From Streptomyces sp. ICBB 8177 (GTDB lineage Bacteria > Actinomycetota > Actinomycetes > Streptomycetales > Streptomycetaceae): a stretch of 64,000 nt of DNA. Under the pieces are notes generated by a model. The model was not told where the DNA came from and did no database searches. It saw only the letters and a list, made by a program, of their open reading frames with translations. Positions 32,947-40,254 of this stretch are shown here, in pieces (the first letter of the stretch is position 1; every line of letters begins with the position of its first letter). The DNA is taken from assembly GCF_003144095.1 (NCBI RefSeq), contig NZ_NSKH01000023.1, positions 717,611-781,610 of the forward strand. Direction: 5' to 3'. A program made the position numbers and the translations under genes.

Positions 32947-34178
<1,232 letters not shown>

Positions 34179-34196: not shown

Positions 34197-34871
34197 TCAC
34201 CGCGCCGCAGGGCCCGCGGGGCCGTGGAGTTCGGCCGGTTCACCGGCGAACACCACGGCCCCGCGCCGCAGTTCGTACACCACGCGGGCGGCGTCGCGCA
34301 GCGCGGCGGGCAGCCGCTGCTCGGCGACGACCACGGTACGGCCGGACTCCGCCAGCCGCGCCAGGGCCCGGTGGGCGGTGTCCGCCACCGCACGGGCCAG
34401 GCCCTGGCCCGGCTCGTCGACCAGCACCAGGCCGGCCGGGGCCAGCAGCGCGCGGGAGACCGCGAGCATGCGCTGCTCCCCGCCGGACAGCGTGGCCGCC
34501 CGGTGCGCGAGCAGGCCGCGCAGGGCGGGGAAGGCGGCCAGCGCCGGATCCGGGTCGGGCCCGAACAGCGCGAGGTTCTCCGTGACCGTCAACGAGCCGA
34601 ACACCGCCCGCCGGTCGGGGACGAAGGCCAGACCACGGCGTGCCCTGCGGTGCGCGGGGAGCCCGGTCACGTCCTGCCCGCGCCACACCACCCGCCCGGC
34701 GGACAGCGGCACCGACCCGGCCAGCGCCCGCAACACGGTGGTGCACCCCGAGCCGTTGGGCCCGGACAGCACGGTCAGGCAGCCCGCGGGCACGGCCAGG
34801 TCGACACCGTGCAGCGCCTCCAGCGGCCCGTAGCGGACGCGGGCCCGGCGCAGCGCGATCTCGACGCTCAT
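34197..34871 (-). CDS. LivF-type ABC ATPase with Cys in place of the Walker A Lys
   Basis: 224 residues. ATPase of a branched-chain-amino-acid-type uptake system. The Walker A region at about residues 37-45 reads SGPNGSGCTT rather than GxGKST/T. The rest is intact: signature LSGGEQRML near 130, Walker B GLVLVDEP near 150 and a switch region VVVAEQR near 190, where H is replaced by Q. Without the lysine, phosphate binding should be poor, so this subunit may be degenerate or hold only one working site of a heterodimer. It overlaps the fused permease-ATPase gene by 4 bases (ATGA). Confidence 0.88.
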   Translation of the reverse strand: MSVEIALRRARVRYGPLEALHGVDLAVPAGCLTVLSGPNGSGCTTVLRALAGSVPLSAGRVVWRGQDVTGLPAHRRARRGLAFVPDRRAVFGSLTVTENLALFGPDPDPALAAFPALRGLLAHRAATLSGGEQRMLAVSRALLAPAGLVLVDEPGQGLARAVADTAHRALARLAESGRTVVVAEQRLPAALRDAARVVYELRRGAVVFAGEPAELHGPAGPAAR

Positions 34872-37639
34872 CCCGCCGCCTCGGCGAAGGCGCCGCGCAC
34901 CCGGGGGTCGGCCAGGACGGCGGCGGCCGGTCCCGAGGCCACGACGCGGCCCGAGGCCATCACGTGGACGACGTCCGCGAGATCCGCGACCAGATCGAGG
35001 TCGTGCTCGACCAGCAGCACCGCCGTGCCGTCCGCCGCAAGCGCCCGCAACACCCTCGCCAGCGAGGCCACTTCGGCCTCGTCCAAGCCCGCCGCCGGCT
35101 CGTCGAGCAGCAGGACGCGGGGGCGGGCGGCCAGCGCCCGGCCCAGTTCCACCCCGCGCAGAGCCCCGGTCGGCAGGTCGGCCGCGTCCCGGTCGCGCAC
35201 CGCGCCGAGTCCCAGCAGCCGCAGCGCCGCGTCGGTGACCGCCGCGCGCTTAGCCGGGCCGGTGGCGGGCCCGTGCTCGGCGCCGACCCGGACGTTGTCC
35301 GCCACCGTCAGCCCGGAGAAGACCGCCACCTGCTGGAAGGTGCGGCCCACGCCGAGCCGGGCGCGCGCGTCGGCGGGCAGCCGGGTGACGTCCCGCCCGT
35401 CCAGCAGCACCCGCCCGGCATCCGGCCGCGCGGCGCCGCACAGGCAGTCGAACAGAGTGGACTTCCCCGCCCCGTTGGGTCCGACCACGGCCGTGATCCG
35501 GCCCCCGGTGACGGCGAGGTCCACGCCGTCCACCACGGCCGGGCCGCCGTAGGAGCGGCGGATGCCGCGGGCCGTCAGCCGCGCGGGCGGCGCGCCGCCG
35601 GGCATCCTGACCGGCCGTCCCGAGCGCGGGGGAGAGGCCGCGGCGTGCGGCTGTCTCGCGGGAGCCGGGGCGTGCGGTTGCTCCGGGGGAGCAGCCGCGG
35701 CGTGCGGCTGTCCCGGTGAACCCGGGTGCGCCGTCACCGGAGCCATGCCCGTACCCGCCGCCCCCGGTCCAGCCACCGCCGCCCGCACCCGCAGCCCCAG
35801 CGGGCTGAGCCGGGGCGCCGGGCGGGGCGCGGCCAGACGGTGCCACAGCCCGGGCAGGCCGCCGGGCAGCCGGGCGAGCGCGATCGCCAGGACGCCCACC
35901 ACGGCGGCGGCGACGCCCTGCACGGTGCCCGCGTCCAGACCGACGAGCAGCGCGGCGGCGGCCAGGGCGCCCAGCGGGCTGTCGGCACCCGTCACGACCA
36001 CGGCGGCGAACCACAGCAGTCCCTGCACCGGGTCGAAGGCGTCGGCGTCGAATGCTTGCGTGCCCAGCGCGAGCATGCCACCGCCGAGTGCGGCCAGCGC
36101 GGCGCCGACGACGAACGTGGCCACCTTCAGCGCGGGCACCCGCACCCCGGCAGCCACCGCGCCGGGCTCGTGGTCCCGCATCGCCGCCAGCGCCCGCCCG
36201 GACCGGCCGCGGCGCAGCATGCGGACCGCGGCCAGCACGGCGCCCAGCAACCCGAGTTCGAGCGCGTAGTACGCGTGGTCGCCGGTGAACCCGGCGGGCC
36301 GGGCGGGCCCCGTACCCAGCGATGAGGTCGCGTACGGCTGGGTGAGCACGAAGCGGCTGATCGCCACCCCGACCGCGAACGTGGCCAGCGCCAGCGCCAG
36401 TCCGCGCCGCCAGATCGCGGGCGTCCCGGTGAGCAGGCCCAGCGGCGCCACCAGCACCACGGCGAGCGCGAGCGCGGCGAGTCCCGGCAGCGCGGGCAGC
36501 CCGGGAAAGGACCCGGTCGCCAGCAGTGCGGTGAACAGCGCGCCGAGCCCGGCCCAGCCCGCCTGGCCCAGCGAGATCTGCCCGCCGGAGCCGGTGACCA
36601 CCACCAGCGACAGCAGGATCACCGCCATCGCCGGGACCTGGACGGACGTCGTCAGGTCCGGCCCGGTCAGGCCCAGCGGCAGCAGGAACAGCAGTGCGCA
36701 GACCGCCCAGGCGCGGTACGAGGCGTGCGGACGGCCCCGCGCGCCGGAGGTCGCCCGGCGCACCGAGCCGGTCGCGCCGCCGATCGCGGGCCCGGCCACC
36801 GAGACGACCAGCAGGGCGACCACGAAGAGGTTGGCGCCGACCGCCTGGAGCAGCGGCTGCGGCCAGCCACCGGGGTGCAGGCGGGTCAGCTGGCTCTGCG
36901 CGATCCCGATCGCCAGGGCCACCGCGACCGCGGCCGGGATGCCGCGCCGCCCGGCCGCCACCGCGACCGCCATCGTCTCCATCACCAGCAGTGACAGCCC
37001 GTACGGGTCGAGCCGCAGGAAGGGCGCGAGCAGTACGCCGGCCAGCCCCGCGGTGAAGGCGCCGAACGCCCAGCCCGCCGCCGCGACCCGGTCGGCGTCG
37101 ACGCCGGTGAGCACGGCGAGCCGACGGTCGTCGACGACGGCGCGCAGCCGGGTGCCGAACGGCGTCCAGCGGGCGACCGCGCCCACCGCGCAGCCCACCA
37201 CGGCCACCGCCGCCAGCGTGGTGACCGCCTGCGCGACCGGTCCGGAAGGCACCAGGGACGGCGCGTCGGTGAGCGCGTTGCCACCCCACACCAGGTACAC
37301 CACGCCGACGAGGAGCACGAAGACACCGAGGGTGGCGACCAGCGTCTCACCGGTGTCCGCCTCCCGGGCGGCCAGTGGGCGGAACACGACGCGGTCCAGC
37401 GCCAGCCCCATCGCGGGGGCGAGCAGCAGCAGGCAGGCGGCGGCCGCGGGCCACAGCGGCCAGTGCCGGACGACGACCAGCTCGCGCAGGACGTACGCGG
37501 TGACGGTGGCGACGGCGCCGTGCGCGAGGTTGAACACACCGGTGGCGCGATAGGTCACCAGCAGGCCGATGCCGGTCAGCGCGGCGGCGCCGCCCACGGC
37601 GAGCCCGGCGAGGGTCAGGTCGACGGTGAGCGAGGCCAC
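34868..37639 (-). CDS. LivH-LivM-LivG fusion: branched-chain amino-acid-type ABC permease/ATPase
   Basis: 923 residues in one chain. Residues 1 to about 290 form a LivH-like permease (GLLVTYRATGVFNLAHGAVA; about 8 membrane segments). About 305-600 form a LivM-like permease (QISLGQAGWAGLGALFTALL; about 8-9 segments). A Pro/Ala/His/Gln-rich linker spans about 610-680. From about 690 there is a LivG-like ATPase with Walker A VVGPNGAGKSTLFD near residue 720, a PTGALRGVELGRALAARP signature region and Walker B VLLLDEPAAGLD. The signature reads LPTGALRGVELGRALA instead of LSGGQ. Operon with livF (4-base overlap) and the membrane/zinc-ribbon gene upstream. Confidence 0.9.
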   Translation of the reverse strand: MASLTVDLTLAGLAVGGAAALTGIGLLVTYRATGVFNLAHGAVATVTAYVLRELVVVRHWPLWPAAAACLLLLAPAMGLALDRVVFRPLAAREADTGETLVATLGVFVLLVGVVYLVWGGNALTDAPSLVPSGPVAQAVTTLAAVAVVGCAVGAVARWTPFGTRLRAVVDDRRLAVLTGVDADRVAAAGWAFGAFTAGLAGVLLAPFLRLDPYGLSLLVMETMAVAVAAGRRGIPAAVAVALAIGIAQSQLTRLHPGGWPQPLLQAVGANLFVVALLVVSVAGPAIGGATGSVRRATSGARGRPHASYRAWAVCALLFLLPLGLTGPDLTTSVQVPAMAVILLSLVVVTGSGGQISLGQAGWAGLGALFTALLATGSFPGLPALPGLAALALAVVLVAPLGLLTGTPAIWRRGLALALATFAVGVAISRFVLTQPYATSSLGTGPARPAGFTGDHAYYALELGLLGAVLAAVRMLRRGRSGRALAAMRDHEPGAVAAGVRVPALKVATFVVGAALAALGGGMLALGTQAFDADAFDPVQGLLWFAAVVVTGADSPLGALAAAALLVGLDAGTVQGVAAAVVGVLAIALARLPGGLPGLWHRLAAPRPAPRLSPLGLRVRAAVAGPGAAGTGMAPVTAHPGSPGQPHAAAAPPEQPHAPAPARQPHAAASPPRSGRPVRMPGGAPPARLTARGIRRSYGGPAVVDGVDLAVTGGRITAVVGPNGAGKSTLFDCLCGAARPDAGRVLLDGRDVTRLPADARARLGVGRTFQQVAVFSGLTVADNVRVGAEHGPATGPAKRAAVTDAALRLLGLGAVRDRDAADLPTGALRGVELGRALAARPRVLLLDEPAAGLDEAEVASLARVLRALAADGTAVLLVEHDLDLVADLADVVHVMASGRVVASGPAAAVLADPRVRGAFAEAAG

Positions 37640-37646
37640 GGGTCTC

Positions 37647-38141
37647 TCACCGGTCCGGTTCGCACACCGGACAGGGGTCCAACCGGCCCTCTCCGGGCGG
37701 CAGTTCGGTCGCGTCCCGGCGGTGGGCGACCAGCGGGCAGTCGGCGCGGTGGCGCATCGTGCCGCCGGGCACCGCGAGCAGCCGGGACGAGGAGGGCGCG
37801 TCGGGCGCGCCGGGTGGGCCTTCGCGGTCGTCCTCGGTGAGCAGCCGGTACAACTCCTCGACGCGGGCGGACGCCTCCGCGGAGCCCTCCTTGGCCAGCA
37901 GCACCGCGCCCGCCACGATCAGCGCCGCGCCGGGGACGGTCGCCGAGGCCAGGTAGGGGAGTTGACGCTGTGTCAGGCTCTGCCCGGACACGCCGTACCA
38001 GCCCAGCACGCACAACACCGCGCCCGCGACCACGGCCAGCCACCCGCCCCACTCGGCGAGCAGGCCGCGCAGCCGGGCGGCGGTCGCGGGGAGCGTCCGC
38101 GCCGACCGGGGCGGCGACGGCGGCCGGGGCTGTTCGGCCAT
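37647..38141 (-). CDS. two-TM membrane protein with C-terminal Cys/His metal-binding-like motif
   Basis: 164 residues from ATG 38141 with a G-rich site just before it. Two membrane segments (WLAVVAGAVLCVLGWYGVSG near 33, SATVPGAALIVAGAVLLAKE near 66), a charged helix (RVEELYRLLTEDD) and a C-terminal HRADCPLVAHRR...PCPVC pattern. H-x3-C...CxxC endings like this resemble the small zinc site of Ada-type domains. First gene of the liv-type operon, only 7 bases from the permease fusion. A regulatory or coupling role is a guess; no substrate can be named. Confidence 0.72.
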   Translation of the reverse strand: MAEQPRPPSPPRSARTLPATAARLRGLLAEWGGWLAVVAGAVLCVLGWYGVSGQSLTQRQLPYLASATVPGAALIVAGAVLLAKEGSAEASARVEELYRLLTEDDREGPPGAPDAPSSSRLLAVPGGTMRHRADCPLVAHRRDATELPPGEGRLDPCPVCEPDR

Positions 38142-38254: not shown

Positions 38255-38300
38255 TAGCGACAACCCAAACGTGTGCGGACCTCCCGGGACGGTGAGGAAG

Positions 38301-38819
38301 ATGGCTCGTACCCCGCGCACCGCGCTGGCCGCCGGAGCGACCGCGGTGGCGCTGGCGGCCGCCCTGACCGCGTGCGGCGGCGGGTCCTCCTCGCCGTCCA
38401 GCACCCCCGCGACCACGGCCACCACCTCGGCCGCGCCGTCCGCGAGCGGCACCGCCCCCGCCGACCCCTCGGCGGCGAAGGCGCAGGTCGTCAAGAACTG
38501 GGAGAAGTTCTTCGACCCGAGCACCTCGCTGGCGGACAAGACCAAGCTGCTGGAGAACGGGCAGAAGATGACCAAGGTCGTCGAGGGGTTCGCCGGCGAC
38601 CCCAGGGTCGGCCAGGTCAAGGCCACCGTGCAGAGCGTGCGGTTCACCTCGCCGTCCGGGGCCGACGTCACCTACTCGCTGGCCCTGAAGGGGACCACCG
38701 TGCTGCCCAGCGCCTCGGGCACCTCCGTGCTCCAGGACGGCGTGTGGAAGGTGTCCGACCAGACCCTGTGCGCGCTGATCTCCCTCGACAGCAGTGGTTC
38801 CGCGATCCCGGGCTGCTGA
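38301..38819 (+). CDS. small predicted lipoprotein
   Basis: 172 residues. Signal peptide MARTPRTALAAGATAVALAA with lipobox LTACG near residue 33, then a Ser/Thr/Ala linker and a small globular domain (VVKNWEKFFDPSTSLADKTK, VEGFAGDPRVGQVKATVQSV, TYSLALKGTTVLPSASG). Its pattern recalls DUF-type lipoproteins of mycobacteria, but no family can be named. ATG 38301 has GAGGAAG just before it. The following solute-binding gene starts inside its last codons (38794). Confidence 0.82.
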   Translation: MARTPRTALAAGATAVALAAALTACGGGSSSPSSTPATTATTSAAPSASGTAPADPSAAKAQVVKNWEKFFDPSTSLADKTKLLENGQKMTKVVEGFAGDPRVGQVKATVQSVRFTSPSGADVTYSLALKGTTVLPSASGTSVLQDGVWKVSDQTLCALISLDSSGSAIPGC

Positions 38820-40254
38820 GACCCGACGCCGGGCAGTTCGCGTTGAGACGCGACGCCGGACCGTCGAGACGCGACGCCGGGCAGTCCGCGCTGAACCGCG
38901 ACGCCGGGCCTTCCGCGCCGGGGCGGCCTGCCTCGCGGCGGCGGCCCTCGCGCTGACCGCCGCCTGCGGGACCCGACTGCCCTCCCGCGACTTCACCGCC
39001 CCGCCCACCGCCGCGCCGACGGGCACCGGCGGCGCCGCGCCGATCCGCGTGGGCGTCATCACCAGCGCCACCAGCCCGGTCGGCGGGGACACCTTCGTCG
39101 GCCCGCGCGACGGCGCCGAGGCCTACTTCGCCCGGCTCGACGCGCACGGCGGGATCAACGGCCACCCCGTCACCGTCGTCACCTGCGACGACGGCGGCAG
39201 CGGCGTCGGCGACACCTCCTGCGCGCACCGGCTCGTCGACCAGGACAAGGTCTTCGCCCTGGTCGCCACCACCGCACTGGACTACGCCGCCGCCCCCTAC
39301 GTGAGCGCCCACGACGTCCCCGACATCGGCGGCCAGCCCCTCGGCACCGCCTACGACACCTATCCGCACCTGTACGGGATCTACGGCAGCGACGCCCCCC
39401 GCGACGGGGCGACCGGCTGGCACGGCACCCTGGTCGCCGGCACCGAGGTCTACCGCTACTTCAAGCAGGAGCAGCACGCCCGCACCGCCGCCGTCGTCTA
39501 CTACAACCAGGCGGACTCCGCCCGCTACGCGAACCAGGTCGTGCGGGGACTGCGCACCGAGGGCTACCGCGTGGTACCGGAAGAGGCCGACTTCGCGCTG
39601 CCGGACTTCTCCGCGGTCGCCGCGGACCTGCGCGCCCACCACGTCGACATCCTCTTCGACGCCCTGGACACCGGCGGCAACTCCCAGCTGTGCAAGGCGA
39701 TGCAGGCCGCCCACGTCACCGTCGCCGCGAAGGTCACCAACGTCCAGAACTGGGACTCGAACGTGCCGAGCGCCTACGCCGGGGCGCCCGGCTGCCGGCG
39801 CGCGCTGTGGGTGACCGGTTCCAGCCGGGACTACGACGACACCGCCAACCCCCAGGTCGCCGCGTTCCGTTCCGGCATGGCGGCCTACCGGGCGGCGCAC
39901 GGCGGCTCGCCCTCGTACCTGTCGCAGTGGCAACTGGAGGGCTGGGCGGCGGGGATGTGGCTGCGTGACGCGCTCTCCGGGTGCCCGGCGCCCGGCACCA
40001 CGACGGGCTCGGTCGGCGCCGCGCGGGCCTGCGTCGAGCGTTTCATGAACCGCCCGCAGGGCTACGACGCGCACGGACTGCTGCTGCCCGCCACCTTCCA
40101 TTCGCTGCCCGCGCCGCCGAGGACCGCCCGCGACTGCCTGTCGGTGGCCCGCTGGGAGCCCGGCGCGGACGGCGGCCGCGGCGGCTGGGTCCCGCAGGGG
40201 CCCGACATGACCCGCAACTGCTTCACCGTCCCCCAACTTCCGTACAAACCCTGA
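38794..40254 (+). CDS. ABC transporter substrate-binding lipoprotein (periplasmic-binding type 6)
   Basis: 486 residues. It begins at GTG 38794, the only in-frame start, overlapping the previous stop by 26 bases. Residues 9-40 are a tandem 16-residue repeat (ETRRRAVRV..., ETRRRAVRA...). Next comes RRRAFRAGAACLAAAALAL with lipobox TAACG near residue 60; the RRAF pair resembles a twin-arginine signal. The mature part is a Leu/Ile/Val-binding-type domain (IRVGVITSATSPVGGDTFVG, VVYYNQADSARYANQVVRGL). It is the likely solute-binding partner of the liv-type fusion, encoded divergently. Ligand unknown. Confidence 0.85.
   Translation: MVPRSRAAETRRRAVRVETRRRTVETRRRAVRAEPRRRAFRAGAACLAAAALALTAACGTRLPSRDFTAPPTAAPTGTGGAAPIRVGVITSATSPVGGDTFVGPRDGAEAYFARLDAHGGINGHPVTVVTCDDGGSGVGDTSCAHRLVDQDKVFALVATTALDYAAAPYVSAHDVPDIGGQPLGTAYDTYPHLYGIYGSDAPRDGATGWHGTLVAGTEVYRYFKQEQHARTAAVVYYNQADSARYANQVVRGLRTEGYRVVPEEADFALPDFSAVAADLRAHHVDILFDALDTGGNSQLCKAMQAAHVTVAAKVTNVQNWDSNVPSAYAGAPGCRRALWVTGSSRDYDDTANPQVAAFRSGMAAYRAAHGGSPSYLSQWQLEGWAAGMWLRDALSGCPAPGTTTGSVGAARACVERFMNRPQGYDAHGLLLPATFHSLPAPPRTARDCLSVARWEPGADGGRGGWVPQGPDMTRNCFTVPQLPYKP
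38818..38913 (+). repeat. 48-bp tandem duplication encoding the Arg-rich N-terminus
   Basis: 38818-38865 and 38866-38913 are two copies with roughly seven differences. Each contains two smaller units around GACGCCGG (copies start near 38818, 38845, 38866 and 38893). In frame they give two 16-residue units, the first starting ETRRRAVRVE and the second ending RRRAF. The preceding gene's stop codon touches the start of the first copy. Confidence 0.9.

Follow-up and report, generated by a model that had tools for sequence, protein, structure and literature searches.

Can an ATP-binding cassette (ABC) importer run on two ATPases of which one lacks the lysine of its Walker A motif, and how would the work then be divided between them? 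The question is raised by an operon of Streptomyces sp. ICBB 8177 (assembly of 27 contigs, 6.33 Mb), found in a stretch of 64,000 nucleotides that we refer to as the window. The operon encodes a fused LivH-LivM-LivG protein of 923 aa (34868..37639, minus strand, read from a GTG start at 37639 to 34868) and a second ATPase, LivF, of 224 aa (34197..34871, minus strand, read from an ATG start at 34871 to 34197), and the two open reading frames (ORFs) overlap by 4 bases. An original prediction had described the three-way fusion and a LivF with Cys for the Walker A Lys, and had proposed that one ATP site is competent and the other crippled. The fusion and the missing Lys both proved correct. We found, in addition, that the loss of the Lys is clade-wide, and it is this loss, and not the lone odd Cys, that constitutes the finding; the fusion of LivG is incidental. 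We consider it probable, at about three chances in four, that the operon encodes an importer of the HAAT type in which one ATP site is catalytic and the other degenerate, i.e. a permanently asymmetric ATPase, because the motifs that deviate and those that are conserved sort into different composite sites.

The assignment to the HAAT (LivFGHM) importers follows from the gene content. Pfam recognises two BPD_transp_2 stretches (PF02653, E 3.4e-42) and one ABC_tran domain in the fusion, and one ABC_tran domain in LivF. The permease parts of the fusion span residues ~1-290 and ~310-605, followed by a linker (~606-685) and the LivG ATPase (686-923). The fusion also matches the models of LivG and UrtD, and LivF those of LivF and UrtE, in each case under the equivalog cutoff. 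Thus, two permease domains, paired LivG-like and LivF-like ATPases in the same operon and a Peripla_BP_6-type binding protein, which together mark a HAAT system, are all present.

Loss of the Walker A lysine in LivF

The Walker A motif of LivF reads GPNGSGCTT (34737..34763, minus strand). The codon for the Cys, residue 43, is TGC at 34745-34743, a few bases from position 34751, near which it had been placed. We collected orthologous operons in two ways. When contigs were scanned with a portion of the fusion, 60 loci were obtained; 43 had an orthologous LivF, and 17 (L081, L083, L085-L099) were left out because none of their LivF matches exceeded 45% identity. In addition, LivF was searched for at E ≤ 1e-45, a cutoff under which paralogues were left out, in 249 family genomes. 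The 43 operons of the scan, 86 from the genome search and that of the window made 130, which were reduced to 125 by identity of the first 150 LivF residues (5 duplicates removed); these are distinct in DNA too. At the position of the Walker A Lys, 124 of the 125 LivF proteins have Arg, the window has Cys and none has Lys. The codons are CGC (49), CGT (43), CGG (31), AGA (1) and TGC (1). The original prediction was, thus, right that this LivF lacks the Lys, but Arg is the rule in the clade and the Cys a later change private to the window. The check that it had set itself, whether close homologues all carry Lys, did not refute it, as none of the 124 other orthologues does.

In the genes compared from outside this clade the Lys is kept. 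All 65 distinct genes resembling LivF that were taken from other families of Actinomycetes have it, a control set made up of the best match in each of 26 genomes and 40 matches picked from the list, with one place common to both, and forming part of more than 150 places. The 28 next-best LivF-like places in the window genome after the operon's own two ATPases (28 of 87 places) all have Lys as well. Arg at this position is, however, not unique to LivF, because at least one further Arg Walker A is encoded in this genome outside those 28, namely GLVGAGRTE in the C-terminal one of the two halves of an RbsA-type protein (L038); this counts against the rarity of the change. We also fetched, with their flanks, 11 sister operons from outside the family. 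In all 11 LivF has Lys, LivH and LivM share a frame with LivG in another, and homologues of the binding protein and of the operon's small membrane protein (described below) are present, so that these operons look like the same transporter before the loss of the Lys.

A quick tree was built from the joined LivF and LivG alignments with the Walker A columns left out, using 54 clade rows (20 chosen and 34 random, after dropping 7 that were short, frameshifted or incomplete) and 15 of 26 outgroup rows. All 54 clade rows fall on one side of a single branch (Shimodaira–Hasegawa-like approximate likelihood-ratio test, SH-aLRT, 99, starred). A starred set of 28 of these rows contains the window, whose nearest row is L040 (Streptomyces humicola), the order within the set being open. 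Arg (CGC) to Cys (TGC) takes one base change, and Lys to Cys directly takes three. We infer, from the topology and not from computed ancestral states, that one replacement of Lys by Arg, at the root of the Streptomycetaceae clade, followed by Arg to Cys in one step in the ancestor of the window, would fit the tree.

We analysed whether the fusion goes together with the loss, as the original prediction had asked. Of the 117 operons readable there, 114 have LivH and LivM in one frame; LivM and LivG are in one unbroken frame in 68 of the 117 and not in the other 49. All 68 fused operons have Arg or Cys in LivF, but so do the 49 unfused ones. LivG is fused in the operon of the window. By genus, it is also fused in 31 of the 34 readable loci that bear the name Streptomyces, in 26 of 28 of g10, in 3 of 3 of g7 and in 7 of 13 of g3; it is unfused in 5 of 5 loci named Kitasatospora, 25 of 25 of g15, 3 of 3 of g2, 3 of 3 of g5, and in the single loci of g4 (1/1) and g9 (1/1). 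The three unfused Streptomyces cases (L064, L065, L068) look frameshifted. Fusion as the cause of the loss is rejected, since Kitasatospora and other genera with a separate LivG have Arg, and in view of the 11 sister operons, in which LivH and LivM are joined in frame, LivG is apart and LivF has Lys; LivG would have joined LivHM separately from the loss of the Lys.

Two proposed composite ATP sites

In ABC dimers each ATP site is composed of the Walker A, Walker B and H-loop of one half and the signature of the other (PMC7756269). LivG and LivF would form such a head-to-tail dimer, a geometry taken from ABC transporters in general, and the motifs can then be sorted into two sites. Site 1 would consist of the canonical LivG Walker A (GPNGAGKST, with Lys726; 35456..35482, minus strand), Walker B with Glu847 and H-loop His879, together with the LivF signature LSGGE (residues 128-132; 34476..34490, minus strand). 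It is complete in the window and nearly so throughout the clade: LivG keeps the Lys in 122 of the 123 rows with a letter there, the H-loop His in all 123 and the catalytic Glu in 123 of 125; the L, S, G and G of the LivF signature are each present in 125 of 125. The two misses of the Glu (L152, L162) come from genes read out of frame there; at the Lys column L182 has Gln, with no readable LivG Walker A, and its match may simply begin there.

Site 2 would combine LivF, with Arg or Cys in its Walker A, and the degenerate LivG signature LPTGA (residues 822-826; 35162..35176, minus strand). Among the 125 orthologues the LivF H-loop has Gln in 113, Arg in 11 and Gly in 1, and the Q-loop has Glu in 56, Ala in 39, Asp in 25 and Ser in 5. 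In LivG the first Gly of LSGG is replaced in 123 of the 124 rows that have a letter there (Thr in 105). Since the LivG signature should face the LivF Walker A in trans, both defects should fall in the same crippled site, leaving the other whole. The deviating motifs are, with the trans pairing assumed from general ABC architecture, confined to one composite site, the other being canonical. The motifs therefore support the proposal that one site is competent and the other crippled, but the divergent LivG signature, which had been noted as a peculiarity of the fusion's own ATPase, belongs to the crippled one. It is indeed divergent, but it is not unusual for a LivG: the closest sister operons, in which LivF has its Lys, read LPTG or LSTG in 11 of 11, and E. 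coli has LAYG. As a second, independent defect it is rejected on these grounds.

In the mechanism that we favour, site 1 would hydrolyse ATP and drive import, and site 2 would, probably, bind nucleotide weakly or without hydrolysis and serve as a hinge. The operon is predicted to import an amino-acid-like substrate by single-site catalysis.

A lesser form of the same asymmetry is seen in other Actinomycetes, where LivF has the Lys in 26 of 26, the H-loop residue is Gln in 25 and Glu in 1, and the first Gly of the LivG signature is replaced in 23 of 23. Beyond Actinomycetota, the comparison covers E. coli and one Phaeobacter pair (L081; VPEGR, VEQN and LPYG), as no LivFG pair was seen in the 16 remaining non-orthologous loci. 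In E. coli LivFGHM the permease and ATPase families and the gene content are the same as here, the H-loop of LivF has Gln, its Q-loop has Glu and LivG reads LAYGD. In contrast to the operon of the window, however, the E. coli LivF keeps its Walker A Lys and the subunits are separate genes, whereas here LivF lacks that Lys and LivH, LivM and LivG make up one chain. As the deviations in the LivG signature and in the H- and Q-loops of LivF fall in one and the same composite site in E. coli and in the actinobacterial pairs examined, LivFG-type importers as a whole could be asymmetric, with one hydrolytic site, and the Streptomycetaceae lineage a natural end point; we offer this tentatively, at a little short of even odds. 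The Streptomycetaceae clade may, then, have completed an ancestral trend.

Weighing the alternatives

Several observations weigh against a permanently asymmetric ATPase. The Walker B Asp and the catalytic Glu of LivF, Glu153 in the window, are kept in 125 of 125 orthologues, which is more than a dead site needs and which argues that the degenerate site has not simply been abandoned. The importer is patchy, with LivF found at E ≤ 1e-45 in 85 of the 249 family genomes, the window's included. Cys at the Lys position was seen in one genome only. Of the fold models, that of LivF is confident (predicted local distance difference test, pLDDT, 95.2), with 1ji0 as the best fold match (Z 28.8, root-mean-square deviation 2.9, 223 aligned, 36% identity), and that of the fusion has a mean pLDDT of 59.5, with the ATPase part mostly at ~90, linker residues 623-682 below 50 and permeases that are helical, of low confidence and not usable. 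Finally, constraint may be relaxed in the lineage of the window. Nonsynonymous and synonymous rates (dN/dS, by YN00) for LivF in five close pairs are 0.022/0.392, 0.048/0.421, 0.014/0.178, 0.039/0.542 and 0.044/0.55, and since they are low, which indicates purifying selection, LivF is not decaying in these relatives; LivG gives 0.027/0.133, 0.038/0.649, 0.024/0.199 and 0.032/1.475 in the first four pairs. For the window against L040 the sole values obtained are from the cruder NG86 method (LivF 0.169/0.652, LivG 0.233/0.733), and they are above those of the close pairs.

The invariant Asp and Glu would also be expected if Arg, and even Cys, still supported catalysis, so that both sites hydrolyse ATP and the change is near-neutral. 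We regard this as unlikely, because the signature opposite is degenerate too and the H-loop and Q-loop of LivF deviate. It is less likely still that the window's LivF is degenerating or has lost its function, in which case the Cys would have arisen in a lineage with no further need of the importer. The Cys and the neighbouring Pro (GPN in place of the clade's GRN; codon CCC for CGC) are private to the window among the 125, and the other examined genome of the window's genus gave no LivF match at E ≤ 1e-45. The reading frames are, however, intact, the other motifs of LivF are kept, the signature and the Walker B (VDEP) being as intact as the original prediction had them, and third codon positions hold 89 of 151 LivF and 94 of 175 LivG differences from L040.

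An error of sequencing or assembly at the TGC, which the original prediction had itself considered, would make the importer an ordinary Arg member of the clade. Such an error could have turned CGC, the commonest codon at this position, into TGC, one base away, and the Cys was seen in a single genome, with no closer relative among those searched: 3 of 35 genomes of g7 matched, all with Arg, as did 1 of 2 of g8, also with Arg. We nevertheless think an error very improbable, as the second private codon, CCC for CGC, makes a real change plausible, and an error would in any case leave the missing Lys unexplained. As the source of the loss itself an error is rejected, since TGC is three changes from AAA or AAG and none of the 125 orthologues has Lys. 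The asymmetric importer, thus, remains the best explanation of the motifs.

Degenerate ATP sites of this kind are known elsewhere. E. coli RbsA, of a CUT2 importer, has GLMGAGRTE, with Arg, in one half and the signature LSIGD in the other. CUT2 importers belong to another permease and substrate family than HAAT importers, and the two degenerate sites would be of independent origin. RbsA also differs in having both ATPases in one chain without a permease, an arrangement absent here, where LivG is fused to the permeases and LivF is separate. In B. subtilis, RbsA and NupO are reported to have a second Walker A without Lys (PMC11466899). ABCG5/ABCG8 combines a change of Walker A Lys to Arg with a changed signature at one site (PMC7756269, PMC8403869), although it is a human exporter of another subfamily, made of two half-transporters. 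ATP binding at its Arg site is markedly lower, and scrambling the site leaves export unimpaired (PMC8403869, PMC7756269). In Pdr5 and the fungal PDR exporters Cys takes the place of the Walker A Lys of the degenerate site (PMC7756269), but Pdr5 has lost the catalytic Glu and the H-loop His of that site too, and it is a single chain with the ATPases before the permeases. The order typical of PDR and ABCG proteins, with the ATPase N-terminal to the permease, is not that of the fusion, in which the ATPase is C-terminal. Both ABCG5/G8, with Arg, and Pdr5, with Cys, function although one of their sites is degenerate in this way (PMC7756269, PMC8403869).

The layout of one working and one crippled ATPase is, thus, known from other transporters, and we found no report of it for LivFGHM (HAAT) importers. 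Neither a Lys-less LivF nor an asymmetry of LivFG was described in the literature searched, which did not include bioRxiv and most subscription journals and therefore does not show absence from print. In the parts of the literature examined, degenerate sites are discussed mostly for exporters. The operons compared here offer a natural series in an importer, from Lys (sister groups) through Arg (one family) to Cys (one species), with the partner site intact throughout, which would allow the role of an importer's second site to be tested and would bear on whether one or two ATP are spent per LivFG cycle generally.

Neighbouring genes and aberrant loci

The operon has a third gene, its first, which lies within the interval of the original prediction and had not been named there. 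It encodes a small membrane protein of 164 aa (37647..38141, minus strand) that has no Pfam family above the cutoff and is weakly like DUF6233, under the cutoff (best E 6e-4, in L041, among five proteins scanned). Its tail carries an HRxxC...CxxC motif, with His131, Arg132, Cys135, Cys157 and Cys160 invariant in 114 of 114 homologues, which suggests metal binding. The motif is also encoded upstream of LivH in 7 of the 11 sister operons outside the family, and the protein is possibly an uncharacterised accessory subunit of the importer.

Divergent to the operon are genes for a WKL-type lipoprotein (38271..38819, plus strand; NF053527, E 1.3e-19, under its cutoff) and for a Peripla_BP_6 substrate-binding protein (38794..40254, plus strand; PF13458, E 5.3e-40), presumed to be the binding protein of the importer. 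The binding-protein ORF, as delimited mechanically, starts at 38794, within the end of the lipoprotein gene, and its true start is therefore probably further in. In the 125 loci homologues were found of the small membrane protein (114), the lipoprotein (115) and the binding protein (113), many of the misses being loci that start at a contig end.

Some of the collected loci are aberrant. Apparent frameshifts within LivG or LivHM genes were seen in L152, L162, L064, L065 and L068, and may reflect error or decay. In a complete Streptomyces chromosome (L084, 4470-5950) a match to the binding protein directly abuts the last part of LivG, with no match to LivHM; this operon seems to have lost its permeases and kept a LivF with Arg. 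On the other side of the operon of the window, and convergent to LivF, lies a gene for a resuscitation-promoting-factor-like protein with a LysM domain (33468-34178, plus strand), a homologue of which is present in 80 of the 125 loci.

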